NCBI GenBank assembly: GCA_028554795.2 | Contig: CM068839.1 | Coordinates: forward strand, 87,627,540 to 87,691,539 | From: Sinohyriopsis cumingii | Taxonomy: Eukaryota > Mollusca > Bivalvia > Unionida > Unionidae | Reading direction: 5' to 3' | Length of the DNA stretch: 64,000 nt | Part shown: positions 1 through 64,000 of the stretch, piece after piece | Layout: every line of letters starts with the position of its first letter | Numbering within the stretch: position 1 is the stretch's first letter | Notes under the pieces: model-generated | Told to the model about the DNA's origin: nothing | Seen by the model: only the letters and a program-made list of their open reading frames with translations | Database searches by the model: none | Made by a program: the position numbers and the translations under genes

Positions 1-780
1 CATGGAAAAGGAAAAAAATAGCCAAATAGATTCATATATTACCAAAACATAATGCAAATAGACTTTTTTTAAATATAAATTATTACAAAAAGTGCACGTG
101 TAAGATTTATAAATTCTTTGATTGATCTTTTTTATTCTGGCTGTGTCATACAGCAGTTGGATATTTAAAATCAGTTATAATCCTTATTACTGCAGCATAT
201 ATACTTGTTAATTATTCTGACCAAGCATTATGCTATGAGAATTGCATTGCATAAATGGAAATATATTGTACTGCAAACCCATTTCCTCACATCCGACCCT
301 GTTATCCGTTCAATGAATGTGTTCTACAAGTATGCTCAGTGGCATGAATATGTGTTTTCTCTGAAATGTTTCAAACTTAATGCAAAATAATGGTGAAAGA
401 CAAACGTTAATTCAAATAAAGCATCACACACATACACACGAATGCAACAAGTGTATACAGACAGGATGTCTTTCTTTGTCATACTATTTACACCGATAAA
501 TCAACAATAACTACTTAAAAGTGTTTTATTCAATTTTTAAATTCGGAAAAATGTGAGAAATACAATAAAACTCAAGAAATATTTATTTGTTGGTATTCCG
601 CAGCGTGACAAATGGAACGTAACGCTCAGTGTAATTTCGACAATTTAGAACAAATGTTCATAACCGACAAAAAGATTTCAAAGAAACTATATATGTAATC
701 TTTACTGGTTCGATCTACAAGTAAATAGCTGCAGGATTCAGCTAATGGTGTACATTTCAAAAGGGAAATGGGATGAAATT
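1..780. repeat. Monomer A spacer (unit 1): AT-rich, no gene
   Basis: This stretch is AT-rich and has no recognisable coding potential. It contains a T7 run followed by aaatataaatt (65-80), a CA-rich tract (427-440) whose length differs between units, and a short inverted repeat: tttact at 701-706 and agtaaa at 720-725, with loop ggttcgatctaca. From about 386 onward it aligns with the spacers of B (from 1766) and C (from about 4156). A short + frame at 205-390 is open here and in most A and C copies, but I do not regard it as a gene. Confidence 0.85.
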
Positions 781-1132
781 GTCTCGAAGTAATTGTAACC
801 AAAGTGTACTAAAAGATTACATAGCTCGCCTCTTTGAAGTAATTATAAACAATGTAATAAACGAGTATGTATCTCAACAATTTGATGTAATTGTAACCAG
901 AGTACTAAAGCCGAGTAAATATCTCAACTCTTTGAAGCAACTGTATAACTGTAAGAAGAGTAATAAATGAGTATATATCTCAACTCTCTGAAGTAATTGT
1001 AACCAAAGTACAATAAATGATTACATAGCTCATCTCTTAGAGGTAATTGTAACTAGTCTAATAAACTATTACATATCTCAGCTCTTCCAAGCAATTGTAA
1101 ACAAAATGTAATAAATAACAGCTTAGATGACC
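781..1132. repeat. Nested minisatellite of monomer A (unit 1), 7 copies of 48-56 bp
   Basis: Copies start at 781, 831, 879, 929, 985, 1035 and 1083 and are 50, 48, 50, 56, 50, 48 and 50 bp long. The shared pattern begins tctttgaagtaattgtaac, has a variable centre with aataaa, and ends atatctcaac. A degenerate eighth copy starts at 1133 (tcttcgatgcatttaatag) and leads into the LINE edge. Copies differ from each other far more than the same copy does between units, so the minisatellite formed before the 6.2-kb unit was amplified. The + frame over copies 1-4 is an accidental ORF. Confidence 0.93.
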
Positions 1133-1184
1133 TCTTCGATGCATTTAATAGTCTTCAGTTTACATAATAAAACTAATTATCATG

Positions 1185-1761
1185 CAGGTCAAAGGTCTTG
1201 GTGAGGTCGATGAACATCATGTAGAGTGGTTGACCTTGCTCTGTGTTCTTCTCTTGGAGTTGTCGTATGGAAAATATCCTGTCTGTCGTCGACCTGCCTG
1301 CATTAAAGCCGCACTGGGATTCCAGGTGCACACTGTCCGCCAGCAACTGCAGCCTGTTGAATATAATGCGGGCATACACGTTGCCAACGATGCTCAGAAG
1401 CGAGATCAAGCGAGATCCCTCTGTAATTATTACAGTCACTGAGGTCGCCATTGTTTTTGTAAACGGTATCTCGCGCATGTCCTGGGGATCCGCTCCTTCC
1501 TCCCAGCAGAGACAAAGTAGCTCATGCAGTGGCTGAAGCAATGTTTGTTTCCCACGTTCGATAGCTTCGGGCGGGATGATGTCACTACCTGGTGCTTTGT
1601 CGTTTGGGAGGGAGTCGATTGCTTTGCTGAGCTCCTCTAAGGTGGGCACTTTGTCGAACTCATCCATGGTGGGCAGTTTTTATGCTGCTAGGGGCCGCAT
1701 CGGTGACTGACATTTCTTGGGAGTATAGCTCTAGGTAGTGTTCCACCCATCTGGCCATCTG
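1185..1761 (-). mobile_element. LINE ORF2 fragment A1 (RT fingers, degenerate)
   Basis: Read on the minus strand, this encodes a piece of a non-LTR retrotransposon reverse transcriptase. The frame 1173-1667 (164 codons) shows DKAPGSD (residues 23-29), SQCGFNAGRST (117-127) and FIDLTKTFD (152-160), which is RT catalytic motif A with its aspartate kept. Residues about 66-88 (MREIPFTKTMATS and following) are a frame-shifted version of the conserved KNNGDLSDCNNYRGISL seen in B and C. The frame returns through a 10-bp duplication (gcgagatcaagcgagatcc, + strand, near 1400). Upstream, 1668-1761 encodes ARWVEHYLELYSQ in another frame. The YADD motif and everything after motif A are missing. It cannot be active. 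Confidence 0.9.
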
Positions 1762-2524: not shown

Positions 2525-2577
2525 TCTTCGATGCATTTAATAGTCTTCAGTTTACATAATAAAAACTAATTATCATG

Positions 2578-6065: not shown

Positions 6066-7379
6066 AAAATGCAATTAAACATTTTATAATTTGATTGGTA
6101 TTGAATGTTCTAGTTCGAGGTTATCAAAAGCAAATTACATGAAAGAACTGCACAATTCTGCAGGTGCCACATTTTACTTATATAAACACATGTACCATGG
6201 AAAAGGAAAAAAATAGCCAAATAGATTCATATATTACCAAAACATAATGCAAATAGACTTTTTTTAAATATAAATTATTACAAAAAGTGCACGTGTAAGA
6301 TTTATAAATTCTTTGATTGATCTTTTTTATTCTGGCTGTGTCATACAGCAGTTGGATATTTAAAATCAGTTATAATCCTTATTACTGCAGCATATATACT
6401 TGTTAATTATTCTGACCAAGCATTATGCTATGAGAATTGCATTGCATAAATGGAAATATATTGTACTGCAAACCCACTTCCTCACATCCGACCCTGTTAT
6501 CTGTTCAATGATTGTATTCTACAAGTATGCTCAGTGGCATGAATATGTGTTTTCTCTGAAATGTTTCAAACTTAATGCAAAATAATGGTGAAAGACAAAC
6601 GTTAATTCAAATAAAGCATCACACACATACACACGAATGCAACAAGTGTATACAGACAGGATGTCTATCTTTGTCATACTATTTACACCGATAAATCAAC
6701 AATAACTACTTAAAAGTGTTTTATTCAATTTTTAAATTCGGAAAAATGTGAGAAATACAATAAAACTCAAGAAATATTTATTTGTTGGTATTCCGCAGCG
6801 TGACAAATGGAACGTAACGCTCAGTGTAATTTCGACAATTTAGAACAAATGTTCATAACCGACAAAAAGATTTCAAAGAAACTATATATGTAATCTTTAC
6901 TGGTTCGATCTACAAGTAAATAGCTGTAGTATTCAGCTAATGGTGTACATTTCAAAAGGGAAATGGGATGAAATTGTCTCGAAGTAATTGTAACCAAAGT
7001 GTACTAAAAGGTTACATAGCTCGCCTCTTTGAAGTAATTATAAACAATGTAATAAACGAGTATGTATCTCAACAATTTGATGTAATTGTAACCAGAGTAC
7101 TAAAGCCGAGTAAATATCTCAACTCGTTGAAGCAACTGTATAACTGTAAGAAGAGTAATAAATGAGTATATATCTCAACTCTCTGAAGTAATTGTAACCA
7201 AAGTACAATAAATGATTACATAGCTCATCTCTTAGAGGTAATTGTAACTAGTCTAATAAACTATTACATATCTCAGCTCTTCCAAGCAATTGTAAACAAA
7301 ATGTAATAAATAACAGCTTAGATGACCTCTTCGATGCATTTAATAGTCTTCAGTTTACATAATAAAACTAATTATCATG

Positions 7380-7956
7380 CAGGTCAAAGGTCTTGGTGAG
7401 GTCGATGAACATCATGTAGAGTGGTTGACCTTGCTCTGTGTTCTTCTCTTGGAGTTGTCGTATGGAAAATATCCTGTCTGTCGTCGACCTGCCTGCATTA
7501 AAGCCGCACTGGGATTCCAGGTGCACACTGTCCGCCAGCAACTGCAGCCTGTTGAATATAATGCGGGCATACACGTTGCCAACGATGCTCAGAAGCGAGA
7601 TCAAGCGAGATCCCTCTGTAATTATTACAGTCACTGAGGTCGCCATTGTTTTTGTAAACGGTATCTCGCGCATGTCCTGGGGATCCGCTCCTTCCTCCCA
7701 GCAGAGACAAAGTAGCTCATGCAGTGGCTGAAGGAATGTTTGTTTCCCACGTTCGATAGCTTCGGGCGGGATGATGTCACTACCTGGTGCTTTGTCGTTT
7801 GGGAGGGAGTCGATTGCTTTGCTGAGCTCCTCTAAGGTGGGCACTTTGTCGAGCTCATCCATGGTGGGCAGTTTTTATGCTGCTAGGGGCCGCATCGGTG
7901 ACTGACATTTCTTGGGAGTATAGCTCTAGGTAGTGTTCCACCCATCTGGCCATCTG
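7380..7956 (-). mobile_element. LINE ORF2 fragment A2
   Basis: Same layout as A1, with the 10-bp duplication and FIDLTKTFD. It differs by starting MDELDK instead of MDEFDK and by a leucine-to-phenylalanine change (QTFLQP) from gaaggaatg at about 7731. Confidence 0.9.
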
Positions 7957-8772
7957 TCATACTTAATGCAAAATAATGGTGAAAGACAAACGTTAATTCA
8001 AATAAAGCATCGCACACATACACACGAATGCAACAAGTGTATACAGACATGATGTCTTCCGTCGTCATACTATATACACCGGCTAATCAACAATAACTAC
8101 TTAAAAGTGTTTAATTCAATTTTTAAATTCACAAAAAATGTGAGAAATACAATAAAACTCAAGAAATCTTTATTTGTTGGTATTCCGCAGCGTAACAAAT
8201 GGAACGTAACGCCCAGTGTAATTTCGACAATTTAGAACAAATCTTCATAACCAACAAAAAGATTTCAAAGAAACTATATATGTAATCTTTACTGGTTCGA
8301 TCTACAAGTAAATAACTCCAGGATTCAGTTTATGGTGTACATTTCAAAAGGGAAATGGGATGAAATTATCTCGAAGTAATTGTAAGCAAAGTGTACTAAA
8401 AGATTACATAGCTCGCCTCTTTGAAGTAATTATAAACAATGTAATAAACGAGTATGTATCTCAACTATTTGATGTAATTGAAACCAGAGTATTAAAGCCG
8501 AGTAAATATCTCAACTCGTTGAAGTAACTGTATAACTGTAAAAAGAGTAATAAATAAGTATATATCTCAATTCTCTGAAGTAATTGTAACCAAAATACAA
8601 TAAATGATTACATAGCTCATCTCTTCAAGGTAATTGTATCTAGTCTAATAAACTATTACATATCTCAGCTCTTCCAAGCAATTGTTAACAAAATGTAATA
8701 AATAACAGCTTAGATGACCTCTTCGATGCATTTAATAGTCTTCAGTTTACATAATAAAAACTAATTATCATG

Positions 8773-9835
8773 CAGGTCAATGGTCTTGGTGAGTTCAATG
8801 AACATCATGTAGAGTGGTTGACCTTGCTCTGTGTTCTTCTCTTGGAGTTGTCGTATGGAAAAGATCATGTCTGTCGTCGACCTGCCTGCTTTAAAGCCGC
8901 ACTGGGATTCCAGGTGCACACGGTCCACCAGCAACTGCAGCCTGTTGAGTATAATGCGGGAATACACTTTGCCAACGATGCTCCGAAGTGAGATCCCTCT
9001 GTAATTATTACAGTTACTGAGGTCGCCATTGTTTTTGTAAACGGTATCTCGCGCATATCTTGGAGGACCGCTCCTTTCCTCCCAGCAGAGACAAAGTAGC
9101 TCATGCAGCAGCTGAAGCAATGTTTGTTTCCCACGTTCGATAGCTTTGGGCGGGATGCTGTCACTACATGATGCTTTGTCGTTTGGGACGGAGTCGATTG
9201 CTTTGTTGAGCTCCTCTAAGGTGGGCACTTTGTGGAGCTCCTCTATGGTGGGCAGTTTTTATGCTGTTAGGGCTGCATCGGTGACTGACATTTCTTGGGA
9301 GCATAGCTCTGAGTAGTGTTCCACCCATCTGGCCATCTGTTGCTCGCAGTCAGTGATCTCCTCTCCCGTCAGAGATTTCTGGCGGACGATCCCTTTCACC
9401 ATAGGGTCTAGAGCCTTCTTGATATCACAGTACATACCTTGAATGTTTCCGGATTCGGCACTGCGCTGGAGTCCTTCACATAGTTGTTACCAGTACTCGT
9501 TCGCGCACTGTCTAGCGATGTGTTGGGTGTTGCTTCGAGCGCTTCTGAGATCAGCAAGCATCCGTTCATTAGGGCATTTTTTGTAAGCTTTGAAGGCTTT
9601 TCATTTGTCTTCGATTATTGGTTCTATCCTTGATAGATGTGCGCTGAAGTAGTGCCAAACGTGGCCATGGCTGTGCTGTAGATGACACCCTTCATGGCGC
9701 TCCACATGACTGTGGCATCGTGATCTGGCAGGTCTTGGAGTGCCTGGTCCAGGGCTAGTATGAGAATACAAGAGTATATCACAATTATGCTCATGCAGCT
9801 CTGAGATTTTTTCAGAGACGTACGAAAATTCAATC
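8773..9835 (-). mobile_element. LINE ORF2 fragment B2
   Basis: B-type with FIELTKTID. Private changes are APGSD to ASCSD (acatgatgc near 9168) and ccgaagtgagatc near 8985. It has agagacaaag at about 9085, where B1, B3 and B4 have agagataaag, so it resembles later B copies in that stretch. Confidence 0.9.
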
Positions 9836-11172
9836 AAAATCCAATTAAACATTTTATAATTTCATTTGTATGAAATGTTCTAATTCGAGGTTATTAAAAG
9901 CTTATTACATGAATAAACTGCACAATTTTGCAGGTGCCACATTTTACTTAAATAAAAACAGACACCATGAAAAAGGAAAAATCAGCCAGATATATTCATA
10001 TATTACCAAAACATAATGCAAATAGACTTTTTTTTATATAAATTATTACAAAAAGTGCACATGTAAGATTTATAAATTCTTTGGTTGATCTTTTTTATTC
10101 TGGCTGTGTCATACAGGAAATGTTTTTTAAACTAAACAGGCATTGGATATTGAAAATCAATTATAATCCTTATTATTGCAGCATATATACTTGTCAATTA
10201 TTCTGGCCAAGCATTATGCTATAAGAATTGCATTGCATAAATGGAAATATATTGTACTGCAAACCCACTTCATCACATTCGACCCTGTTATCTGTTCAAT
10301 GAATGTATTCTACAAGTATCCTCAATGGCATGAATATCGGTTTTCTTTGAAATGTTTCAAACTTAATGCAAAATAACGGTGAAAGACAAACGTTAATTCA
10401 AATAAAGCATCACACACATACACACGAATGCAACAAGTGTATACAGACATGAAGTCTTCCTTCGTCATACTATATACACCGGCTGATCAACAATAACTAC
10501 TTAAAAGTGTTTTATTCAATTGTTAAATATGTAAAACATTTGAGAAATACAATAAAACCCAAGAAATTTGTATTTGTTGGTATTCCACAGCGTGACAAAT
10601 GGAACGTAATTCCCAGTGTAATTTCGACAATTTAGAACAAATCTTCATAACCAACAAAAAGATTTCAAAGAAACTATATATGTAATCTTTACTGGTTCGA
10701 TCTACAAGTAAATAGCTGCAGGATTCAGTTAATGGTGTACATTTCAAAAGGGAAATGGGATGAAAATGTCTCGAAGTAATTGTAACCAAAGTGTACTAAA
10801 AGATCACATAGCTCGCCTCTTTGAAGTAATTATAAACAATGTAATAAACAAGTACGTATCTCAACTATTTGATGTCATTGAAACCAGAGTACTAAAGCCG
10901 AGTAAATATCTCAACTCGGTGAAGTAACTGTATAACTGTAACAAGAGTAATAAATGAGTATATACTTCAACTCTCTGAAGTAATTGTAACCAAAGTACAA
11001 TAAATGATTACATAGCTAATCTCTTCAAGGTAATGGTAACTAGTCTAATAAACTATTACATATCTCAGCTCTTCCAAGCAATTGTAAACAAAATGTAATA
11101 AATAACAGCTTAGATGACCTCTTCGATGCATTTAATAGTCTTCAGTTTACATAATAAAAACTAATTATCATG

Positions 11173-12260
11173 CAGGTCAATGGTCTTGGTGAGTTCAATG
11201 AACATCATGTAGAGTGGTTGACCTTGCTCTGTGTTCTTCTCTTGGAGTTGTCGTATGGAAAAGATCATGTCTGTCGTCGACCTGCCTGCTTTAAAGCCGT
11301 ACTGGGATTCCAGGTGCACACGGTCCACCAGCAACTGCAGCCTGTTGAGTATAATGCGGGCATACACTTTGCCAACGATGCTCAGAAGCGAGATCCCTCT
11401 GTAGTTATTACAGTCACTGAGGTCGCCATTGTTTTTGTAAACGGTGTCTCGCGCATATCTTGGGGGACCGCTCCTTTCCTTCCAGCAGAGACAAAGTAGC
11501 TCATGCAGCGGCTGAAGCAATGTTGGTTTCCCACGTTCTATAGCTTTGGGCGGGATGCTGTCACTACCTGGTGCTTTGTCGTTTGGGTGGGAGTCGAATG
11601 CTTTGCTGAGCTCCTCTAAGGTGGGCACTTTGTCGAGCTCATCCATGGTGGGCAGTTTTTATGCTGCTAGGGGCCGCATCGGTGACTAGCATATCCTGGG
11701 AGTATAGCTCTGAGTAGTGTTCCACCCATCTGGCCATCTGTTGCTCACAGTCAGTGATCTCCTCTCCCCTCAGAGATTTCCGGGGAACGACCCCTTTCAC
11801 CGTAGGGCCTAGAGCCTTCTTGATACCACAGTACATACCTTGGATGTTTCCGGACTCGGCACTGTGCTGGAGTCCTTCACATAGTTGTTACCAGTACTCG
11901 TTCGCGCACTGTCTAGCGATTGTGTTGGGTGTTGCTTCGAGCACTTCTGAGATCAGCAAGCGTCCGTCCATTAAGGCATTTTTTTGTAACGTTTGAAGGC
12001 TTTTCGTTTGTCTTCGATTATTGGTTCCATCCTTGATAGATGTGCGTTGAACCAGTCCTGGCTGGGCCGTTCCTTTTTGCCAAACATGGCCATGGCTGTG
12101 CTGTTGATTGCACCCTTCATGGCGTTCCACATGGCTGTGGCATCGTGGTCTGGCAGGTCCTGGAGTGTCTGGTCCAGGGCTAGTATGACAATACAAGAGT
12201 ATATCACAATTCTACTAGTGCAGCTCTGAGATTGTTTCAGAGACGTACGACCATTCAATC
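11173..12260 (-). mobile_element. LINE ORF2 fragment C2
   Basis: C-type with FIELTKTID at the RT end. Private changes are AFDSHP for AIDSHP (gagtcgaatgc near 11591) and a gtgtctcgcgc variant near 11444. The linker breaks are the same as in C1. Confidence 0.9.
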
Positions 12261-13574
12261 AAAATGCAATTAAACATTTTATAATTTGATTGGTATTGAA
12301 TGTTCTAGTTCGAGGTTATCAAAAGCAAATTACATGAAAGAACTGCACAATTCTGCAGGTGCCACATTTTACTTATATAAACACATGTACCATGGAAAAG
12401 GAAAAAAATAGCCAAATAGATTCATATATTACCAAAACATAATGCAAATAGACTTTTTTTAAATATAAATTATTACAAAAAGTGCACGTGTAAGATTTAT
12501 AAATTCTTTGATTGATCTTTTTTATTCTGGCTGTGTCATACAGCAGTTGGATATTTAAAATCAGTTATAATCCTTATTACTGCAGCATATATACTTGTTA
12601 ATTATTCTGACCAAGCATTATGCTATGAGAATTGCATTGCATAAATGGAAATATATTGTACTGCAAACCCACTTCCTCACATCCGACCCTGTTATCTGTT
12701 CAATGAATGTATTCTACAAGTATGCTCAGTGGCATGAATATGTGTTTTCTCTGAAATGTTTCAAACTTAATGCAAAATAATGGTGAAAGACAAACGTTAA
12801 TTCAAATAAAGCATCACACACATACACACGAATGCAACAAGTGTATACAGACAGGATGTCTATCTTTGTCATACTATTTACACCGATAAATCAACAATAA
12901 CTACTTAAAAGTGTTTTATTCAATTTTTAAATTCGGAAAAATGTGAGAAATACAATAAAACTCAAGAAATATTTATTTGTTGGTATTCCGCAGCGTGACA
13001 AATGGAACGTAACGCTCAGTGTAATTTCGACAATTTAGAACAAATGTTCATAACCGACAAAAAGATTTCAAAGAAACTATATATGTAATCTTTACTGGTT
13101 CGATCTACAAGTAAATAGCTGTAGTATTCAGCTAATGGTGTACATTTCAAAAGGGAAATGGGATGAAATTGTCTCGAAGTAATTGTAACCAAAGTGTACT
13201 AAAAGGTTACATAGCTCGCCTCTTTGAAGTAATTATAAACAATGTAATAAACGAGTATGTATCTCAACAATTTGATGTAATTGTAACCAGAGTACTAAAG
13301 CCGAGTAAATATCTCAACTCGTTGAAGCAACTGTATAACTGTAAGAAGAGTAATAAATGAGTATATATCTCAACTCTCTGAAGTAATTGTAACCAAAGTA
13401 CAATAAATGATTACATAGCTCATCTCTTAGAGGTAATTGTAACTAGTCTAATAAACTATTACATATCTCAGCTCTTCCAAGCAATTGTAAACAAAATGTA
13501 ATAAATAACAGCTTAGATGACCTCTTCGATGCATTTAATAGTCTTCAGTTTACATAATAAAACTAATTATCATG

Positions 13575-24649: not shown

Positions 24650-25555
24650 AAAATGCAATTAAACATTTTATAATTTGATTGGTATTGAATGTTCTAGTTC
24701 GAGGTTATCAAAAGCAAATTACATGAAAGAACTGCACAATTCTGCAGGTGCCACATTTTACTTATATAAACACATGTACCATGGAAAAGGAAAAAAATAG
24801 CCAAATAGATTCATATATTACCAAAACATAATGCAAATAGACTTTTTTTAAATATAAATTATTACAAAAAGTGCACGTGTAAGATTTATAAATTCTTTGA
24901 TTGATCTTTTTTATTCTGGCTGTGTCATACAGCAGTTGGATATTTAAAATCAGTTATAATCCTTATTACTGCAGCATATATACTTGTTAATTATTCTGAC
25001 CAAGCATTATGCTATGAGAATTGCATTGCATAAATGGAAATATATTGTACTGCAAACCCACTTCCTCACATCCGACCCTGTTATCTGTTCAATGAATGTA
25101 TTCTACAAGTATGCTCAGTGGCATGAATATGTGTTTTCTCTGAAATGTTTCAAACTTAATGCAAAATAATGGTGAAAGACAAACGTTAATTCAAATAAAG
25201 CATCACACACACACGAATGCAACAAGTGTATACAGACAGGATGTCTTTCTTTGTCATACTATTTACACCGATAAATCAACAATAACTACTTAAAAGTGTT
25301 TTATTCAATTTTTAAATTCGGAAAAATGTGAGAAATACAATAAAACTCAAGAAATATTTATTTGTTGGTATTCCGCAGCGTGACAAATGGAACGTAACGC
25401 TCAGTGTAATTTCGACAATTTAGAACAAATGTTCATAACCGACAAAAAGATTTCAAAGAAACTATATATGTAATATTTACTGGTTCGATCTACAAGTAAA
25501 TAGCTGCAGGATTCAGCTAATGGTGTACATTTCAAAAGGGAAATGGGATGAAATT

Positions 25556-25851
25556 GTCTCGAAGTAATTGTAACCAAAGTGTACTAAAAGATTACATAGC
25601 TCGCCTCTTTGAAGTAATTATAAACAATGTAATAAACGAGTATGTATCTCAACAATTTGATGTAATTGTAACCAGAGTACTAAAGCCGAGTAAATATCTC
25701 AACTCGTTGAAGTAATTGTAACCAAAGTACAATAAATGATTACATAGCTCATCTCTTAGAGGTAATTGTAACTAGTCTAAGAAACTATTACATATCTCAG
25801 CTCTTCCAAGCAATTGTAAACAAAATGTAATAAATAACAGCTTAGATGACC
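25556..25851. repeat. Contracted minisatellite in A of unit 5 (6 copies)
   Basis: One 56-bp copy (copy 4) is missing: the end of copy 3, atctcaactcgttgaagt, runs directly into the body of copy 5, aattgtaaccaaagtac. The join lies inside the shared gaagtaattgtaac-type stretch, as expected for slippage or unequal exchange between neighbouring copies. Copy 6 carries agtctaagaaac. Confidence 0.93.
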
Positions 25852-25903
25852 TCTTCGATGCATTTAATAGTCTTCAGTTTACATAATAAAACTAATTATC
25901 ATG

Positions 25904-26480
25904 CAGGTCAAAGGTCTTGGTGAGGTCGATGAACATCATGTAGAGTGGTTGACCTTGCTCTGTGTTCTTCTCTTGGAGTTGTCGTATGGAAAATATCCTG
26001 TCTGTCGTCGACCTGCCTGCATTAAAGCCGCACTGGGATTCCAGGTGCACACTGTCCGCCAGCAACTGCAGCCTGTTGAATATAATGCGGGCATACACGT
26101 TGCCAACGATGCTCAGAAGCGAGATCAAGCGAGATCCCTCTGTAATTATTACAGTCACTGAGGTCGCCATTGTTTTTGTAAACGGTATCTCGCGCATGTC
26201 TTGGGGATCCGCTCCTTCCTCCCAGCAGAGACAAAGTAGCTCATGCAGTGGCTGAAGCAATGTTTGTTTCCCACGTTCGATAGCTTCGGGCGGGATGATG
26301 TCACTACCTGGTGCTTTGTCGTTTGGGAGGGAGTCGATTGCTTTGCTGAGCTCCTCTAAGGTGGGCACTTTGTCGAACTCATCCATGGTGGGCAGTTTTT
26401 ATGCTGCTAGGGGCCGCATCGGTGACTGACATTTCTTGGGAGTATAGCTCTAGGTAGTGTTCCACCCATCTGGCCATCTG
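25904..26480 (-). mobile_element. LINE ORF2 fragment A5
   Basis: It still has FIDLTKTFD, the last A copy with the catalytic aspartate of motif A. The variant gcatgtcttgggg appears here first among A copies and is shared with A6, A9, A10 and A11. Confidence 0.9.
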
Positions 26481-27296
26481 TCATACTTAATGCAAAATAA
26501 TGGTGAAAGACAAACGTTAATTCAAATAAAGCATCGCACACATACACACGAATGCAACAAGTGTATACAGACATGATGTCTTCCGTCGTCATACTATATA
26601 CACCGGCTAATCAACAATAACTACTTAAAAGTGTTTAATTCAATTTTTAAATTCACAAAAAATGTGAGAAATACAATAAAACTCAAGAAATCTTTATTTG
26701 TTGGTATTCCGCAGCGTAACAAATGGAACGTAACGCCCAGTGTAATTTCGACAATTTAGAACAAATCTTCATATGCGACAAAAAGATTTCAAAGAAACTA
26801 TATATGTAATCTTTACTGGTTCGATCTACAAGTAAATAACTCCAGGATTCAGTTTATGGTGTACATTTCAAAAGGGAAATGGGATGAAATTATCTCGAAG
26901 TAATTGTAAGCAAAGTGTACTAAAAGATTACATAGCTCGCCTCTTTGAAGTAATTATAAACAATGTAATAAACGAGTATGTATCTCAACTATTTGATGTA
27001 ATTGAAACCAGAGTATTAAAGCCGAGTAAATATCTCAACTCGTTGAAGTAACTGTATAACTGTAAAAAGAGTAATAAATAAGTATATATCTCAATTCTCT
27101 GAAGTAATTGTAACCAAAATACAATAAATGATTACATAGCTCATCTCTTCAAGGTAATTGTATCTAGTCTAATAAACTATTACATATCTCAGCTCTTCCA
27201 AGCAATTGTTAACAAAATGTAATAAATAACAGCTTAGATGACCTCTTCGATGCATTTAATAGTCTTCAGTTTACATAATAAAAACTAATTATCATG

Positions 27297-28359
27297 CAGG
27301 TCAATGGTCTTGGTGAGTTCAATGAACATCATGTAGAGTGGTTGACCTTGCTCTGTGTTCTTCTCTTGGAGTTGTCGTATGGAAAAGATCATGTCTGTCG
27401 TCGACCTGCCTGCTTTAAAGCCGCACTGGGATTCCAGGTGCACACGGTCCACCAGCAACTGCAGCCTGTTGAGTATAATGCGGGAATACACTTTGCCAAC
27501 GATGCTCCGAAGCGAGATCCCTCTGTAATTATTACAGTTACTGAGGTCGCCATTGTTTTTGTAAACGGTATCTCGCGCATATCTTGGAGGACCGCTCCTT
27601 TCCTCCCAGCAGAGACAAAGTAGCTCATGCAGCAGCTGAAGCAATGTTGGTTTCCCACGTTCGATAGCTTTGGGCGGGATGCTGTCACTACATGGTGCTT
27701 TGTCGTTTGGGACGGAGTCGATTGCTTTGTTGAGCTCCTCTAAGGTGGGCACTTTGTGGAGCTCCTCTATGGTGGGCAGTTTTTATGCTGTTAGGGCTGC
27801 ATCGGTGACTGACATTTCTTGGGAGCATAGCTCTGAGTAGTGTTCCACCCATCTGGCCATCTGTTGCTCGCAGTCAGTGATCTCCTCTCCCCTCAGAGAT
27901 TTCTGGCGGACGATCCCTTTCACCATAGGGTCTAGAGCCTTCTTGATATCACAGTACATACCTTGGATGTTTCCGGATTCGGCACTGCGCTGGAGTCCTT
28001 CACATAGTTGTTACCAGTACTCGTTCGCGCACTGTCTAGCGATGTGTTGGGTGTTGCTTCGAGCACTTCTGAGATCAGCAAGCATCCGTTCATTAGGGCA
28101 TTTTTTGTAAGCTTTGAAGGCTTTTCATTTGTCTTCGATTATTGGTTCTATCCTTGATAGATGTGCGCTGAAGTAGTGCCAAACGTGGCCATGGCTGTGC
28201 TGTAGATGACACCCTTCATGGCGCTCCACATGACTGTGGCATCGTGATCTGGCAGGTCTTGGAGTGCCTGGTCCAGGGCTAGTATGAGAATACAAGAGTA
28301 TATCACAATTATGCTCATGCAGCTCTGAGATTTTTTCAGAGACGTACGAAAATTCAATC
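27297..28359 (-). mobile_element. LINE ORF2 fragment B5
   Basis: B-type with agagacaaag (LLCLCW instead of LLYLCW), as in all later B copies. The linker has gcttcgagcacttctg near 28060, which is the C-type base at a site where other B copies have gcgcttctg. Confidence 0.9.
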
Positions 28360-36920: not shown

Positions 36921-38230
36921 AAAATGCAATTAAACATTTTATAATTTGATTGGTATTGAATGTTCTAGTTCGAGGTTATCAAAAGCAAATTACATAAAAG
37001 AACTGCACAATTCTGCAGGTGCCACATTTTACTTATATAAACACATGTACCATGGAAAAGGAAAAAAATAGCCAAATAGATTCATATATTACCAAAACAT
37101 AATGCAAATAGACTTTTTTTAAATATAAATTATTACAAAAAGTGCACGTGTAAGATTTATAAATTCTTTGATTGATCTTTTTTATTCTGGCTGTGTCATA
37201 CAGCAGTTGGATATTTAAAATCAGTTATAATCCTTATTACTGCAGCATATATACTTGTTAATTATTCTGACCAAGCATTATGCTATGAGAATTGCATTGC
37301 ATAAATGGAAATATATTGTACTGCAAACCCACTTCCTCACATCCGACCCTGTTATCTGTTCAATGAATGTATTCTAAAAGTATTCTCAGTGGCATGAATA
37401 TGTGTTTTCTCTGAAATGTTTCAAACTTAATGCAAAATAATGGTGAAAGACAAACGTTAATTCAAATAAAGCATCACACACACACGAATGCAACAAGTGT
37501 ATACAGACAGGATGTCTTTCTTTGTCATACTATTTACACCGATAAATCAACAATAACTACTTAAAAGTGTTTTATTCAATTTTTAAATTCGGAAAAATGT
37601 GAGAAATACAATAAAACTCAAGAAATATTTATTTGTTGGTATTCCGCAGCGTGACAAATGGAACGTAACGCTCAGTGTAATTTCGACAATTTAGAACAAA
37701 TGTTCATAACCGACAAAAAGATTTCAAAGAAACTATATATGTAATCTTTACTGGTTCGATCTACAAGTAAATAGCTGTAGTATTCAGCTAATGGTGTACA
37801 TTTCAAAAGGGAAATGGGATGAAATTGTCTCGAAGTAATTGTAACCAAAGTGTACTAAAAGATTACATAGCTCGCCTCTTTGAAGTAATTATAAACAATG
37901 TAATAAACGAGTATGTATCTCAACAATTTGATGTAATTGTAACCAGAGTACTAAAGCCGAGTAAATATCTCAACTCGTTGAAGCAACTGTATAACTGTAA
38001 CAAGAGTAATAAATGAGTATATATCTCAACTCTCTGAAGTAATTGTAACCAAAGTACAATAAATGATTACATAGCTCATCTCTTAGAGGTAATTGTAACT
38101 AGTCTAATAAACTATTACATATCTCAGCTCTTCCAAGCAATTGTAAACAAAATGTAATAAATAACAGCTTAGATGACCTCTTCGATGCATTTAATAGTCT
38201 TCAGTTTACATAATAAAACTAATTATCATG

Positions 38231-38516
38231 CAGGTCAAAGGTCTTGGTGATTTCGATGAACATCATGTAGAGTGGTTGACCTTGCTCTGTGTTCTTCTCT
38301 TGGAGTTGTCGTATGGAAAAGATCATGTCTGTCGTCGACCTGCCTGCTTTAAAGCCGCACTGGGATTCCAGGTGCACACGGTCCGCCAGCAACTGCAGCC
38401 TGTTGAGTATAATGCGGGCATACACTTTGCCAACGATGCTCAGAAGCGAGATCCCTCTGTAGTTATTACAGTCACTGAGGTCGCCATTGTTTTTGTAAAC
38501 GGTATCTCGCGCATAC
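38231..38516 (-). mobile_element. Chimeric LINE segment in A position of unit 7 (C-type)
   Basis: Flanking spacer and minisatellite are A-type (ttacataataaaactaatt), but this RT segment is C4-type: aaaagatcatgtctg, acacggtccgcc, tcagaagcgagatccctctg without the A-specific 10-bp duplication, and tgtagttattacag. It stops abruptly at about 38516, in the codons for ARD, and runs into B-type sequence. The product from 38425 down keeps FIEITKTFD. Confidence 0.9.
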
Positions 38517-38525
38517 CTTGCTCTG
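38510..38525. other. Unit 7 rearrangement breakpoint
   Basis: C-type ctcgcgcata is followed directly by B-type ccttgctctgtg. The two parent sequences (catatcttgg and ttgaccttgc) share only an imperfect cttg here, so this is not a crossover between equivalent positions. The join removes the rest of the A LINE, the B spacer and the B minisatellite. Confidence 0.9.
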
Positions 38526-39529
38526 TGTTCTTCTCTTGGAGTTGTCGTATGGAAAAGATCATGTCTGTCGTCGACCTGCCTGCTTTAAAGCCGCACTGGG
38601 ATTCCAGGTGCACACGGTCCACCAGCAACTGCAGCCTGTTGAGTATAATGCGGGAATACACTTTGCCAACGATGCTCCGAAGCGAGATCCCTCTGTAATT
38701 ATTACAGTTACTGAGGTCGCCATTGTTTTTGTAAACGGTATCTCGCGCATATCTTGGAGGACCGCTCCTTTCCTCCCAGCAGAGACAAAGTAGCTCATGC
38801 AGCAGCTGAAGCAATGTTGGTTTCCCACGTTCGATAGCTTTTGGCGGGATGCTGTCACTACATGGTGCTTTGTCGTTTGGGACGGAGTCGATTGCTTTGT
38901 TGAGCTCCTCTAAGGTGGGCACTTTGTGGAGCTCCTCTATGGTGGGCAGTTTTTATGCTGTTAGGGCTGCATCGGTGACTGACATTTCTTGGGAGCATAG
39001 CTCTGAGTAGTGTTCCACCCATCTGGCCATCTGTTGCTCGCAGTCAGTGATCTCCTCTCCCCTCAGAGATTTCTGGCGGACGATCCCTTTCACCATAGGG
39101 TCTAGAGCCTTCTTGATATCACAGTACATACCTTGGATGTTTCAGGATTCGGCACTGCGCTGGAGTCCTTCACATAGTTGTTACCAGTACTCGTTCGCGC
39201 ACTGTCTAGCGATGTGTTGGGTGTTGCTTCGAGCGCTTCTGAGATCAGCAAGCATCCGTTCATTAGGGCATTTTTTGTAAGCTTTGAAGGCTTTTCATTT
39301 GTCTTCGATTATTGGTTCTATCCTTGATAGATGTGCGCTGAACTAGTGCCAAACGTGGCCATGGCTGTGCTGTAGATGACACCCTTCATGGCGCTCCACA
39401 TGACTGTGGCATCGTGATCTGGCAGGTCTTGGAGTGCCTGGTCCAGGGCTAGTATGAGAATACAAGAGTATATCACAATTATGCTCATGCAGCTCTGAGA
39501 TTTTTTCAGAGACGTACGAAAATTCAATC
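38517..39529 (-). mobile_element. LINE ORF2 fragment B7, missing its RT edge
   Basis: B-type sequence starts at ccttgctctgtg, about 50 bp inside the usual B fragment, so its motif A is missing. Because the preceding C-type segment extends 286 bp, about 235 bp of RT sequence is present twice in a row. The minus ORF 38440-38922 crosses the join (NTEQG then MREIPFTKTM). Private marks are gcttttggcggg and tttcaggattcgg. Confidence 0.9.
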
Positions 39530-40865
39530 AAAATCCAATTAAACATTTTATAATTTCATTTGTATTAAATGTTCTAATTCGAGGTTATTAAAAGCTTATT
39601 ACATGAATAAACTGCACAATTTTGCAGGTGCCACATTTTACTTAAATAAAAACAGACACCATGAAAAAGGAAAAATCAGCCAGATATATTCATATATTAC
39701 CAAAAGATAATGCAAATAGACTTTTTTTATATAAATTATTACAAAAAGTGCACATGTAAGATTTATAAATTCTTTGGTTGATCTTTTTTATTCTGGCTGT
39801 GTCATACAGGAAATGTTTTTTAAACTAAACAGGCATTGGATATTGAAAATCAATTATAATCCTTATTATTGCAGCATATATACTTGTCAATTATTCTGGC
39901 CAAGCATTATGCTATAAGAATTGCATTGCATAAATGGAAATATATTGTACTGCAAACCCACTTCCTCACATCCGACCCTGTTATCTGTTCAGTGAATGTA
40001 TTCTACAAGTATCCTCAATGGCATGAATATCGGTTTTCTTTGAAATGTTTCAAACTTAATGCAAAATAACGGTGAAAGACAAACGTTAATTCAAATAAAG
40101 CATCACACACATACACACGAATGCAACAAGTGTATACAGACATGATGTCTTCCTTCGTCATACTATATACACCGGCTGATCAACAATAACTACTTAAAAG
40201 TGTTTTATTCAATTGTTAAATATGTAAAACATTTGAGAAATACAATAAAACCCAAGAAATTTGTATTTGTTGGTATTCCACAGCGTGACAAATGGAACGT
40301 AATTCCCAGTGTAATTTCGACAATTTAGAACAAATCTTCATAACCAACAAAAAGATTTCAAAGAAACTATATATGTAATCTTTACTGGTTCGATCTACAA
40401 GTAAATAGCTGCAGGATTCAGTTAATGGTGTACATTTCAAAAGGGAAATGGGATGAAAATGTCTCGAAGTAATTGTAACCAAAGTGTACTAAAAGATCAC
40501 ATAGCTCGCCTCTTTGAAGTAATTATAAACAATGTAATAAACAAGTACGTATCTCAACTATTTGATGTCATTGAAACCAGAGTACTAAAGCCGAGTAAAT
40601 ATCTCAACTCGGTGAAGTAACTGTATAACTGTAACAAGAGTAATAAATGAGTATATACTTCAACTCTCTGAAGTAATTGTAACCAAAGTACAATAAATGA
40701 TTACATAGCTCATCTCTTCAAGGTAATGGTAACTAGTCTAATAAACTATTACATATCTCAGCTCTTCCAAGCAATTGTAAACAAAATGTAATAAATAACA
40801 GCTTAGATCACCTCTAAAATGCATTTAATAGTCTTCAATTTACATAATAAAAACTAATTATCATG

Positions 40866-41953
40866 CAGGTCAAAGGTCTTGGTGATTTCGATGAACATCA
40901 TGTAGAGTGGTTGACCTTGCTCTGTGTTCTTCTCTTGGAGTTGTCGTATGGAAAAGATCATGTCTGTCATCGACCTGCCTGCTTTAAAGCCGCACTGGGA
41001 TTCCAGGTGCACACGGTCCGCCAGCAACTGCAGCCTGTTGAGTATAATGCGGGCATACACTTTGCCAACGATGCTCAGAAGCGAGATCCCTCTGTAGTTA
41101 TTACAGTCACTGAGGTCGCCATTGTTTTTGTAAATGGTATCTCGCGCATATCTTGGGGTACCGCTCCTTTCCTTCCAGCAGAGACAAAGTAGCTCATGCA
41201 GCGGCTGAAGCAATGTTGGTTTCCCACGTTCTATAGCTTTGGGCGGGATGCTGTCACTACCTGGTGCTTTGTCGTTTGGGTGGGAGTCGATTGCTTTGCT
41301 GACCTCCTCTAAGGTGGGCACTTTGTCGAGCTCATCCATGGTGGGCAGTTTTTATGCTGCTAGGGGCCGCATCGGTGACTAGCATATCCTGGGAGTATAG
41401 CTCTGAGTAGTGTTCCACCCATCTGGCCATCTGTTGCTCACAGTCAGTGATCTCCTCTCCCCTCAGAGATTTCCGGGGAACGGCCCCTTTCACCGTAGGG
41501 CCTAGAGCCTTCTTGATACCACAGTACATACCTTGGATGTTTCCGGACTCGGCACTGTGCTGGAGTCCTTCACATAGTTGTTACCAGTACTCGTTCGCGC
41601 ACTGTCTAGCGATTGTGTTGGGTGTTGCTTCGAGCACTTCTGAGATCAGCAAGCGTCCGTCCATTAAGGCATTTTTTTGTAACGTTTGAAGGCTTTTCGT
41701 TTGTCTTCGATTATTGGTTCCATCCTTGATAGATGTGCGTTGAACCAGTCCTGGCTGGGCCGTTCCTTTTTGCCAAACATGGCCATGGCTGTGCTGTAGA
41801 TTGCACCCTTCATGGCGTTCCACATGGCTGTGGCATCGTGGTCTGGCAGGTCCTGGAGTGTCTGGTCCAGGGCTAGTATGACAATACAAGAGTATATCAC
41901 AATTCTACTAGTGCAGCTCTGAGATTGTTTCAGAGACGTACGACCATTCAATC
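40866..41953 (-). mobile_element. LINE ORF2 fragment C7
   Basis: The last copy of the FIEITKTFD group among C monomers. Private coding changes are EEVSKA, GTPRYARDTIYK and GRSMTD, more than in most copies. Confidence 0.9.
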
Positions 41954-43263
41954 AAAATGCAATTAAACATTTTATAATTTGATTGGTATTGAATGTTCTA
42001 GTTCGAGGTTATCAAAAGCAAATTACATGAAAGAACTGCACAATTCTGCAGGTGCCACATTTTACTTATATAAACACATGTACCATGGAAAAGGAAAAAA
42101 ATAGCCAAATAGATTCATATATTACCAAAACATAATGCAAATAGACTTTTTTTAAATATAAATTATTACAAAAAGTGCACGTGTAAGATTTATAAATTCT
42201 TTGATTGATCTTTTTTATTCTGGCTGTGTCATACAGCAGTTGGATATTTAAAATCAGTTATAATCCTTATTACTGCAGCATATATACTTGTTAATTATTC
42301 TGACCAAGCATTATGCTATGAGAATTGCATTGCATAAATGGAAATATATTGTACTGCAAACCCACTTCCTCACATCCGACCCTGTTATCTGTTCAATGAA
42401 TGTATTCTACAAGTATGCTCAGTGGCATGAATATGTGTTTTCTCTGAAATGTTTCAAACTTAATGCAAAATAATGGTGAAAGACAAACGTTAATTCAAAT
42501 AAAGCATCACACACACACGAATGCAACAAGTGTATACAGACAGGATGTCTTTCTTTGTCATACTATTTACACCGATAAATCAACAATAACTACTTAAAAG
42601 TGTTTTATTCAATTTTTAAATTCGGAAAAATGTGAGAAATACAATAAAACTCAAGAAATATTTATTTGTTGGTATTCCGCAGCGTGACAAATGGAACGTA
42701 ACGCTCAGTGTAATTTCGACAATTTAGAACAAATGTTCATAACCGACAAAAAGATTTCAAAGAAACTATATATGTAATCTTTACTGGTTCGATCTACAAG
42801 TAAATAGCTGTAGTATTCAGCTAATGGTGTACATTTCAAAAGGGAAATGGGATGAAATTGTCTCGAAGTAATTGTAACCAAAGTGTACTAAAAGATTACA
42901 TAGCTCGCCTCTTTGAAGTAATTATAAACAATGTAATAAACGAGTATGTATCTCAACAATTTGATGTAATTGTAACCAGAGTACTAAAGCCGAGTAAATA
43001 TCTCAACTCGTTGAAGCAACTGTATAACTGTAACAAGAGTAATAAATGAGTATATATCTCAACTCTCTGAAGTAATTGTAACCAAAGTACAATAAATGAT
43101 TACATAGCTCATCTCTTAGAGGTAATTGTAACTAGTCTAATAAACTATTACATATCTCAGCTCTTCCAAGCAATTGTAAACAAAATGTAATAAATAACAG
43201 CTTAGATGACCTCTTCGATGCATTTAATAGTCTTCAGTTTACATAATAAAACTAATTATCATG

Positions 43264-60470: not shown

Positions 60471-61784
60471 AAAATGCAATTAAACATTTTATAATTTGAT
60501 TGGTATTGAATGTTCTAGTTCGAGGTTATCAAAAGCAAATTACATGAAAGAACTGCACAATTCTGCAGGTGCCACATTTTACTTATATAAACACATGTAC
60601 CATGGAAAAGGAAAAAAATAGCCAAATAGATTCATATATTACCAAAACATAATGCAAATAGACTTTTTTTAAATATAAATTATTACAAAAAGTGCACGTG
60701 TAAGATTTATAAATTCCTTGATTGATCTTTTTTATTCTGGCTGTGTCATACAGCAGTTGGATATTTAAAATCAGTTACAATCCTTATTACTGCAGCATAT
60801 ATACTTGTTAATTATTCTGACCAAGCATTATGCTATGAGAATTGCATTGCATAAATGGAAATATATTGTACTGCAAACCCACTTCCTCACATCCGACCCT
60901 GTTATCTGTTCAATGAATGTATTCTACAAGTATGCTCAGTGGCATGAATATGTGTTTTCTCTGAAATGTTTCAAACTTAATGCAAAATAATGGTGAAAGA
61001 CAAACGTTAATTCAAATAAAGCATCACACACATACACACGAATGCAACAAGTGTATACAGACAGGATGTCTTTCTTTGTCATACTATTTACACCGATAAA
61101 TCAACAATAACTACTTAAAAGTGTTTTATTCAATTTTTAAATTCGGAAAAATGTGAGAAATACAATAAAACTCAAGAAATATTTATTTGTTGGTATTCCG
61201 CAGCGTGACAAATGGAACGTAACGCTCAGTGTAATTTCGACAATTTAGAACAAATGTTCATAACCGACAAAAAGATTTCAAAGAAACTATATATGTAATC
61301 TTTACTGGTTCGATCTACAAGCAAATAGCTGCAGGATTCAGCTAATGGTGTACATTTCAAAAGGGAAATGGGATGAAATTGTCTAGAAGTAATTGTAACC
61401 AAAGTGTACTAAAAGATTACATAGCTCGCCTCTTTGAAGTAATTATAAACAATGTAATAAACGAGTATGTATCTCAACAATTTGATGTAATTGTAACCAG
61501 AGTACTAAAGCCGAGTAAATATCTCAACTCGTTGAAGCAACTGTATAACTGTAAGAAGAGTAATAAATGAGTATATATCTCAACTCTCTGAAGTAATTGT
61601 AACCAAAGTACAATAAATGATTACATAGCTCATCTCTTAGAGGTAATTGTAACTAGTCTAATAAACTATTACATATCTCAGCTCTTCCAAGCAATTGTAA
61701 ACAAAATGTAATAAATAACAGCTTAGATGACCTCTTCGATGCATTTAATAGTCTTCAGTTTACATAATAAAACTAATTATCATG

Positions 61785-62361
61785 CAGGTCAAAGGTCTTG
61801 GTGATTTCGATGAACATCATGTAGAGTGGTTGACCTTGCTCTGTGTTCTTCTCTTGGAGTTGTCGTATGGAAAATATCCTGTCTGTCGTCGACCTGCCTG
61901 CATTAAAGCCGCACTGGGATTCCAGGTGCACACTGTCCGCCAGCAACTGCAGCCTGTTGAATATAATGCGGGCATACACGTTGCCAACGATGCTCAGAAG
62001 CGAGATCAAGCGAGATCCCTCTGTAATTATTACAGTCACTGAGGTCGCCATTGTTTTTGTAAACGGTATCTCGCGCATGTCTTGGGGATCCGCTCCTTCC
62101 TCCCAGCAGAGACAAAGTAGCTCATGCAGTGGCTGAAGCAATGTTTGTTTCCCACGTTCGATAGCTTCGGGCGGGATGATGTCACTACCTGGTGCTTTGT
62201 CGTTTGGGAGGGAGTCAATTGCTTTGCTGAGCTCCTCTAAGGTGGGCACTTTGTTGAGCTCGTCCATGGTTAGCAGTTTTTATGCTGCTAGGGGCCGCAT
62301 CGGTGACTGACATTTCTTGGTAGTATAGCTCTAGGTAGTGTTCCACCCATCTGGCCATCTG
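61785..62361 (-). mobile_element. LINE ORF2 fragment A11
   Basis: A-type body with the FIEITKTFD edge. Private changes cluster at the linker boundary (gagtcaattgc, tttgttgagctcgtcc, catggttagcag), giving MDELNK. Confidence 0.9.
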
Positions 62362-63176
62362 TCATACTTAATGCAAAATAATGGTGAAAGACAAACGTTA
62401 ATTCAAATAAAGCATCGCACACATACACACGAATGCAACAAGTGTATACAGACATGATGTCTTCCGTCGTCATACTATATACACCGGCTAATCAACAATA
62501 ACTACTTAAAAGTGTTTAATTCAATTTTTAAATTCACAAAAAATGTGAGAAATAAAATAAAACTCAAGAAATCTTTATTTGTTGGTATTCTGCTGCGTAA
62601 CAAATGGAACGTAACGCCCAGTGTAATTTCGACAATTTAGAACAAATCTTCATATGCGACAAAAAGATTTCAAAGAAACTATATATGTAATCTTTACTGG
62701 TTCGATCTACAAGTAAATAACTCCAGGATTCAGTTTATGGTGTACATTTCAAAAGGAAATGGGATGAAATTATCTCGAAGTAATTGTAAGCAAAGTGTAC
62801 TAAAAGATTACATAGCTCGCCTCTTTGAAGTAATTATAAACAATGTAATAAACGAGTATGTATCTCAACTATTTGATGTAATTGAAACCAGAGTATTAAA
62901 GCCGAGTAAATATCTCAACTCGTTGAAGTAACTGTATAACTGTAAAAAGAGTAATAAATAAGTATATATCTCAATTCTCTGAAGTAATTGTAACCAAAAT
63001 ACAATAAATGATTACATAGCTCATCTCTTCAAGGTAATTGTAACTAGTCTAATAAACTGTTACATATCTCAGCTATTCCAAGCAATTGTAAACAAAATGT
63101 AATAAATAACAGCTTAGATGACCTCTTCGATGCATTTAATAGTCTTCAGTTTACATAATAAAAACTAATTATCATG

Positions 63177-64000
63177 CAGGTCAATGGTCTTGGTGAGTTC
63201 AATGAACATCATGTAGAGTGGTTGACCTTGCTCTGTGTTCTTCTCTTGGAGTTGTCGTATGGAAAAGATCATGTCTGTCGTCGACCTGCCTGCTTTAAAG
63301 CCGCACTGGGATTCCAGGTGCACACGGTCCACCAGCAACTGCAGCCTGTTGAGTATAATGCGGGAATACACTTTGCCAACGATGCTCCGAAGCGAGATCC
63401 CTCTGTAATTATTACAGTTACTGAGGTCGCCATTGTTTTTGTAAACGGTATCTCGCGCATATCTTGGAGGACCGCTCCTTTCCTCCCAGCAGAGACAAAG
63501 TAGCTCATGCAGCAGCTGAAGCAATGTTGGTTTCCCACGTTCGATAGCTTTGGGCGGGATGCTGTCACTACATGGTGCTTTGTCGTTTGGGACGGAGTCG
63601 ATTGCTTTGTTGAGCTCCTCTAAGGTGGGCACTTTGTGGAGCTCCTCTATGGTGGGCAGTTTTTATGCTGTTAGGGCTTCATCGGTGACTGACATTTCTT
63701 GGGAGCATAGCTCTGAGTAGTGTTCCACCCATCTGGCCATCTGTTGCTCGCAGTCAGTGATCTCCTCTCCCGTCAGAGATTTCTGGCGGACGATCCCTTT
63801 CACCATAGGGTCTAGAGCCTTCTTGATATCACAGTACATACCTTGGATGTTTCCGGATTCGGCACTGCGCTGGAGTCCTTCACATAGTTGTTACCAGTAC
63901 TCGTTCGCGCACTGTCTAGCGATGTGTTGGGTGTTGCTTCGAGCGCTTGTGAGGTCAGCAAGCATCCGTTCATTAGGGCATTTTTTGTAAGCTTTGAAGG
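63177..64000 (-). mobile_element. LINE ORF2 fragment B11, cut by the window edge
   Basis: B-type, with the RT-fingers product equal to B10. Private linker changes are gggcttcatcgg and cgcttgtgaggtcagc. The 5' part of the fragment lies outside the window. Confidence 0.88.

Follow-up and report, generated by a model that had tools for sequence, protein, structure and literature searches.

Higher-order repeats (HORs) have been studied mostly in satellites with short monomers. The established case is alpha satellite, with its 171-bp monomers, its zones of multimers and its monomeric edge. Tandem units of kilobase size are known from the macrosatellites D4Z4, which carries a gene, and DXZ4, and neither is known to have higher-order layering.

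Other satellites are related by content. According to the available part of a review (PMC9659126), LINE-ORF2-derived satellites include chicken HinfI/SCR1 (from CR1), Phodopus PROsat (L1) and Phoca Pvc20 (L1), the Drosophila 18HT satellite comes from HeT-A/TART, and centromere arrays of potato are derived from retrotransposons. Ogre elements of plants are LTR retrotransposons whose short 3' UTR repeats gave rise to satellites, and higher-order repeats are noted for FabTR-2, a different family from the Ogre satellites (PMC7004042, in the portion available).

The array described here, from the freshwater mussel Sinohyriopsis cumingii, occupies all of the stretch of DNA that was analysed (64,000 bp, the window). 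It resembles alpha-satellite HORs in having diverged monomer types within a repeating multimer, multimer copies much closer to each other than the monomers are, and zones of differing multimers with a monomeric edge. It differs from them in that its monomers measure 2.4 kb (vs 171 bp), more than ten times as long, and are composite and not of nucleosomal length, and in that its unit carries a deletion across a monomer junction. With D4Z4 and DXZ4 it shares kilobase tandem units at few loci, but these are not known to have its higher-order layering of diverged monomers. A non-LTR retrotransposon fragment in the repeat unit is common to the mussel array and HinfI/SCR1, PROsat, Pvc20 and 18HT, being a segment of ORF2 in the first three; host and LINE differ, and none of the four is described in the available part of the review as a layered array of 2.4-kb composites (PMC9659126). 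The Ogre satellites and the potato arrays are likewise tandem arrays derived from retrotransposons, the former from short 3' UTR repeats of an LTR element, whereas the mussel array is LINE-based (PMC7004042, same portion). A staged higher-order architecture, with edge monomers, zoned multimers and closer neighbours, appears here with 2.4-kb monomers. Among the open-licence papers listed for satellites of S. cumingii, for bivalve higher-order repeats and for TE-derived satellites, we found no prior description of this family.

Units and monomers in the window

The whole window (1..64000) is a head-to-tail tandem array in a single orientation. Copies of three monomer types, M1, M2 and M3, cover 64,000 of its 64,000 bases, non-array sequence amounts to zero, and the search for inverted copies found no reverse-complement 16-mer in the forward strand of the window. 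The order M1-M2-M3 is present ten times, in 10 of 10 units (in one of them a hybrid replaces M1 and M2), and is followed by one M1 and a partial M2; the first base is missing from the first unit. Repeats are most often 6195 or 6194 bp apart, minor modes lie at 6134-6138, 2399-2404, 1392 and 5033 bp, and the reference unit (6195 bp, M1+M2+M3) lies at 6195..12389. The first-pass annotation had claimed a three-monomer unit of 6,195 bp repeated at least 10.5 times; the composition and the count agree with the decomposition, while the length holds as the commonest period only, nine of the ten units measuring 6133-6195 bp and one 5033 bp.

Three units are 57-62 bp shorter than 6195 bp because their M1 differs in its minisatellite part. 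They lie at 24779..30911 (6133 bp), 30912-37049 and 48273-54406, so that length variants are interleaved along the window. The 5033-bp unit (37050..42082), recognised by decomposition and monomer clustering, contains one hybrid M1/M2 monomer and, at the hybrid junction (38279..38756), a 236-bp tandem duplication (97%) which we take to be the trace of an exchange out of register.

M1, M2 and M3 are versions of one 2.4-kb composite, made of a spacer, a minisatellite with a unit of about 50 bp and an antisense, frame-broken fragment of a LINE reverse transcriptase. In the reference unit M3 (2425 bp, 9965..12389) is complete, with modules a, b and c; M1 (1763 bp, 6195..7957) has modules a and b without c, and M2 (2007 bp, 7958..9964) has b and c without a. 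Aligned to M3, M1 stops at position 1777 and M2 begins at position 394, and at their junction (7957..7958) about 1041 bp, i.e. module c and the module a of the next monomer, are absent. The unit is therefore three 2.4-kb monomers minus 1 kb, and its odd length of 6.2 kb is due to this single deletion of about 1.04 kb. The earlier description of the monomers as 1.8-2.4 kb long is right in its figures, the two shorter ones being truncations of the third. The minisatellite, with units of about 48-50 bp, lies at 10773..11103 in M3; its homologues are at 6981-7310 in M1 and at about 8370-8703 in M2, where the limits are partly set by eye.

The ten units differ from each other by 0.19-0.95% (mean 0.58%, 45 pairs). 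For the 30 monomers of the window, the hybrid excluded, mean divergence over the shared 1.38-kb part is 0.49-0.77% for monomers of the same type and 5.23-5.54% for those of different types; with the hybrid included, the within-type mean of the full-monomer group is 1.52%. Clustering of 109 monomers, from the window and from other loci, gave three clusters (1.0-1.4% within, 5.3-5.5% between the three) and one outlier. Multimer copies (0.58%) are thus far closer than monomer types (5.2-5.5%), which makes the array a higher-order repeat, and its long head-to-tail runs of homogenised non-coding units make it satellite DNA; near identity between units with bigger gaps between monomers had been noticed at first reading. 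Unit divergence is 0.46% at lag 1 and climbs to 0.69% by lag 6, and the trend with distance is not monotonic because it drops again to 0.59% and 0.63% at lags 7-8, long-lag values being based on few pairs each.

Units more than 99% identical might also be produced by false concatenation of one or a few units during assembly. We consider this highly improbable, because the units hold distinct variants and the three monomer types recur on five other sequences; no identical pair exists among the ten units, and the variant units are interleaved. A typical HiFi read covers more than one such unit. HiFi reads were used for the published assembly, according to the available part of its description (PMC10969987).

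The LINE relic and the search for other functions

In M3 the LINE relic, comprising a connector and the N-terminal part of a reverse transcriptase, lies on the minus strand at 11174..12184 (approximate limits, set by eye from Pfam, phmmer and the reading frames). One of three translated pieces of M3 has an RVT_1 match above the Pfam cut-off (3.6e-8), spanning only profile positions 5-77 of 205, and phmmer matches the relic to LINE-1 ORF2p at about 2e-5. A stop codon and frameshifts are present in the relic of both M2 and M3, and no intact coding frame was found in the unit. The relic, with its partial RVT_1 and broken frames, is not an active LINE, which would have an intact ORF and a complete reverse transcriptase; the array, having recognisable transposable-element sequence in its repeat unit, is a TE-derived satellite. 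Together with the monomer clustering, these matches and broken frames support the original reading, in which the array is a three-monomer higher-order satellite and every monomer contains a LINE relic. The clade of the LINE can be guessed to be RTE-BovB, the source of the guess being the expansion of RTE-BovB in other Unionida, given in the available part of PMC10294476.

The 2.4-kb monomer might instead be a mobile element itself, which captured a LINE piece and was then multiplied in tandem. It has internal repeats, a typical trait of Helitron- and pearl-type elements in bivalves. The structure of one of these, CvA, is described in the available part of PMC5874043. However, no convincing terminal inverted repeat was found in the monomer, the best near-terminal pair being 16 nt at 81%, and among the matches listed the copies lie in arrays, which leaves this origin improbable.

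Hammerhead ribozymes are common in some satellites. Rfam gave four matches on one unit, all under their gathering scores and none of them a hammerhead; the lowest E-value was that of asponA (0.017, 19.3 bits against a gathering score of 113). No tRNA gene was found in the 64-kb window, and a 44-mer from the array had no match in the viral collection.

Extent, zones and possible chromosomal role of the array

Around the window the array was sampled across 0.88 Mb of C16, the 100.2-Mb sequence to which the window belongs: of 15 probes inside 87.25-88.11 Mb, 14 were entirely array and the 15th was interrupted by one insertion. The array is present on C16 at 87.2-88.1 Mb, around the window, and at 82.8-83.2 Mb; this second locus, about 4 Mb from the first, is known from pattern matches, from the distances between these and from a small number of BLAST matches. 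Among the matches listed, exact pattern matches are on C16 only, and the best DNA matches are on C16 and five short sequences, whose probes contain all three monomer types. The family is estimated to total about 4-5 Mb of the genome, and this fills a gap, the available part of the S. cumingii assembly paper listing just one satellite element, 413 bp long (PMC10969987).

Starting from an edge of full 2.4-kb monomers, the array passes through zones of trimers, of 3735-bp dimers, of 9988-bp units, again of trimers and finally of 3790-bp dimers. The trimer is just one among several higher-order forms. At the one edge that was read, three full-length monomers are consecutive, with exact matches spaced 2403 bp. 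In two of them the first 400 bp resemble M1 and positions 601-1000 and 1401-2400 resemble M3. Being mosaics of the higher-order types, these two may be recombinants and not ancestral survivors. The remaining edge monomer is the one outlier in the 109-monomer clustering.

From its size and form alone, the array is likely to have a role as structural heterochromatin, pericentromeric, centromeric or of a knob. An interstitial or subtelomeric knob or macrosatellite on one chromosome, having no kinetochore role, has in our judgement about even chances. The unit is of kilobase size, few loci were seen among the matches listed, and the two positions on the 100.2-Mb sequence suit it; however, if the assembly used here is the published one, its order rests on genetic maps and the position on C16 is soft, and a higher-order structure in zones is seen more typically in centromeric satellites.

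Another possibility is that linkage group 16 has its functional centromere (CENP-A site) in this array, whose layered core and monomeric edge would correspond to a centromere core with an older flank. In favour of this, the array was sampled over 0.88 Mb or more in a single place, and its higher-order forms are layered, full-length monomers lying at the sole edge read. Against it, a satellite shared by the centromeres ought to be present on every chromosome and the listed matches are limited to C16 and five short sequences, the same C16 sequence has a second array about 4 Mb off, and the window has no match to the CENP-B-box core motif (0.08 expected by chance), although a CENP-B box is missing from many centromeres. 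On balance we regard the centromere as unlikely, and slightly more doubtful still is the claim that a kinetochore forms here, on one mussel chromosome, upon higher-order units built from 2.4-kb LINE-composite monomers. If true, a mussel centromere would pass through the same stages as primate alpha satellite, from monomer to multimer to layered array, without nucleosome-sized monomers. Contigs consisting of array only cannot be placed by genetic maps, which softens the restriction to C16 as an argument against a centromere.

Proposed origin of the multimer

Very probably the array is a LINE-composite satellite whose higher-order organisation was layered by unequal exchange. A 2.4-kb segment, in which an AT-rich spacer and a 50-bp minisatellite accompanied the antisense relic of a LINE ORF2, would first have been duplicated in tandem. 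Its copies diverged into the three types which are now about 5-6% apart. The deletion of about 1.04 kb presumably joined two neighbours over their junction and so gave the 6.2-kb trimer. Unequal sister-chromatid exchange and gene conversion, of which footprints are visible, would have spread and homogenised the multimer and not the monomer, and the same exchange may have given rise to the dimers (3735 and 3790 bp) and the 9988-bp forms of adjoining zones. The hybrid monomer, the 236-bp duplication and the minisatellite-length variants can be read as what is expected of unequal exchange.

Since 2.4-kb monomers hold many markers, single exchange events are directly readable, including the 1.04-kb deletion, the hybrid monomer with its 236-bp duplication, the mosaic edge monomers and the minisatellite length variants. 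Models of HOR formation can therefore be tested here without arguments from nucleosome length or CENP-B. The full-length 2.4-kb monomers at the array edge have the form that is posited for the ancestral segment.

Unit structure and monomer anatomy

The whole window is a single tandem array of three related monomers, M1, M2 and M3, which in a BLAST decomposition cover 64,000 of its 64,000 bases. The monomers occur ten times in the order M1-M2-M3, the first unit being without its first base, and are followed by one more M1 and 1638 bases of M2. The commonest distances between recurring 16-mers in the window are 6195 and 6194 bp, with further spacings of 6134-6138, 2399-2404, 1392 and 5033 bp, and the same comparison found no reverse-strand 16-mers in the forward strand. 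The lengths of units 1 to 10 are 6194, 6195, 6194, 6195, 6133, 6138, 5033, 6190, 6134 and 6193 bp. Pairwise the ten units differ by 0.19-0.95% (mean 0.58%), no pair being identical. Divergence is 0.46% at lag 1, 0.69% at lag 6, 0.59% at lag 7 and 0.63% at lag 8; adjacent units are thus slightly closer to each other, with lags 7 and 8 falling below lag 6. Between monomer types the window shows 5.23-5.54%, against 0.49-0.77% within types (hybrid monomer of unit 7 excluded). The first-pass annotation had described a three-monomer unit repeated at least 10.5 times, with near-identical units and clearly more different monomers, which agrees with these data; its unit length of 6,195 bp holds as the commonest spacing but not for every unit, as the range is 5033-6195 bp.

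M3 (2425 bp) is the full monomer, with a module a of 393 bp, a module b of about 1384 bp and a module c of 648 bp; M1 (1763 bp) carries a and b, and M2 (2007 bp) b and c. A deletion of about 1041 bp took out module c of one monomer and module a of the next, and the unit therefore corresponds to three 2.4-kb monomers minus this single deletion. Module b contains an AT-rich spacer, a minisatellite with units of about 48-50 bp and the start of a LINE segment on the minus strand, which extends into module c. Of three translated pieces scanned against Pfam, one matched positions 5-77 of the 205-position RVT_1 profile with an E value of 3.6e-8, and also LINE-1 ORF2p structures (E about 2e-5); the other two gave no LINE match in Pfam. 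The remainder of the reverse-transcriptase domain is absent from the segment, and a stop codon and frameshifts break it in M2 and M3, the two monomers translated. The LINE segment is a relic, as first proposed, and the composite of retrotransposon, minisatellite and spacer claimed for the monomers is found in module b and, for the retrotransposon part, on into module c.

Monomer types and zoning along C16

The shared b module was clustered by average linkage using 109 segments from the window and from the fetched loci (L009-L048) of at least 5 kb, leaving out one segment not longer than 1000 bases. Three clusters (40, 29 and 39 segments) were obtained, with distances of 1.0-1.4% within and 5.3-5.5% between them, plus one outlier, an edge monomer 5.1-6.7% from every cluster. 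All three types are present on C16, the sequence carrying the window, and in the probes of five short sequences (C34, C262, C308, C352 and C646). Both flanks were readable in 102 of the 109 segments, and three show a flank type at odds with their cluster. One is the window monomer at 37421, which is the fused M1/M2 hybrid of the 5033-bp unit (37050..42082); the others, from L015 and L016, are each the fifth monomer of a 9988-bp unit and have an M3-type b behind the M1/M2 junction. We read these three as exchange products.

Multimers are zoned along C16, as judged from the probes and from the matches listed, where holes between matches carry no weight as absence. At the edge (87.250-87.257 Mb) there are three consecutive full monomers, and exact matches are spaced 2403 bp apart at 87.246-87.256 Mb. 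Two of the three are mosaic, their first 400 bp being M1-like (0-1% from M1) and positions 601-1000 and 1401-2400 M3-like (0-1% from M3). The third begins with 400 M1-like bases and is elsewhere 3.5-10% from whichever of M1 and M3 is comparable. Trimers follow at 87.258-87.277 Mb, then dimers of 3733-3736 bp at 87.290-87.396 Mb with one 5071-bp interval among them, four intervals of 9987-9989 bp at 87.402-87.442 Mb, and again trimers from there to beyond the window. Probes at 87.78-88.11 Mb carry dimers of about 3790 bp, whose second monomer is M2-like or mosaic.

Three diverged types, a deletion junction, low divergence between multimers and several zoned multimers are the facts bearing on origin; the hybrid with its 236-bp duplication, minisatellite-length variants and mosaic edge monomers look like footprints of recombination. 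A 2.4-kb locus was probably duplicated in tandem and its copies diverged, after which a deletion whose break shows little homology or none (as judged by eye) and then recurrent unequal exchange, with the multimer as unit of exchange, would have produced the array.

Extent, amount and possible role

The assembly (G000) has 1138 sequences and 2,904,868,851 bp (2.905 Gb), C16 accounting for 100.2 Mb and carrying the window at 87627540-87691539. Among the sequences whose lengths were checked, C1, C2, C12, C15-C17 and C19 measure 72-193 Mb, and C21, C24, C27, C29-C31, C33, C34 and the remaining ones at most 13 Mb. All fifteen probes within 87.25-88.11 Mb of C16 are array, fourteen of them completely; none of the seven 3-6-kb probes taken at 86.600, 87.000, 87.200, 88.200, 88.600, 90.0 and 95.0 Mb contains it. 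The left limit lies at 87.203-87.226 Mb by pattern matches and the right limit between 88.110 and 88.200 Mb. The family has another array about 4 Mb away, at 82.785-83.174 Mb of C16 as judged from pattern matches and the few BLAST matches listed. There the matches listed show runs of 2402-2408 bp among irregular spacings at 82.838-82.904 Mb, which give way to regular 2404/1392/2398-2400 trimers over 82.949-82.996 Mb. The 10-kb probes of C34, C262, C308, C352 and C646, one each, are fully array; the 3-kb start probes of 13 other sequences, one being all N, hold no array. Among the matches listed, exact ones fall on C16 only, and the best DNA matches belong either to C16 or to one of the five short sequences. 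Contigs made up of array alone would lack genetic markers to place them on chromosomes.

A 51-mer of the satellite has 861 exact copies genome-wide, and a reverse-transcriptase 41-mer and a spacer 40-mer have 2776 and 2311 copies with up to three mismatches. In a non-random sample of 234 kb of array the three sequences recur once in 4680, 1918 and 2000 bp, respectively, and with this calibration the counts correspond to about 4.0, 5.3 and 4.6 Mb of satellite, the second figure possibly including dispersed LINE copies.

Size and form make a heterochromatin role likely. The array is also a possible candidate centromere, a reading which the layered structure favours. Against it speak the apparent confinement of the family, among the matches listed, to a single chromosome and the presence of another array on C16 at a distance of about 4 Mb.

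Higher-order satellites and satellites containing LINE ORF2 are known kinds, according to a review (PMC9659126), and the repeat table of the S. cumingii assembly paper gives one satellite element of 413 bp (PMC10969987). In the open-licence literature searched, mostly at listing level, the family is undescribed and there is no account of layered higher-order arrays with kilobase LINE-composite monomers. The satellite is real, well preserved and useful, and its mechanism is not foreign to the known kinds.

Insertion and side observations

An insertion of about 16.1 kb, a length taken from the spacing of flanking matches, breaks the array from about 87484870 (L017, C16:87480000-87489999; L050, 87500700-87501300). 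It has a terminal inverted repeat of at least 246 bp (99.6% identity), a 6-bp target-site duplication and, by eye, open frames for an integrase, a packaging ATPase, a PLA2-like protein, a helicase and a DNA polymerase B, features that resemble those of a young element of the Polinton/Maverick (or adintovirus-like) type. The window holds the empty version of the site. The insertion point is a few bases beyond the junction left by the M1/M2 deletion, which may be coincidence.

The start of C12 (L031, positions 1-3000) carries unrelated minisatellites with units of 51, 63, 25 and 36 bp. G000 has two distinct types of COX1, a gene that is translated here by the invertebrate mitochondrial code and whose protein resembles that of unionid mussels. 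C807 carries it twice, 15,961 bp apart, an arrangement like that of a concatenated mitochondrial genome. A more divergent, lower-scoring COX1 with more TGA codons is found on C1106 and could represent a male-type mitochondrial genome, as under doubly uniparental inheritance, or else a copy in the nucleus or contaminating DNA.
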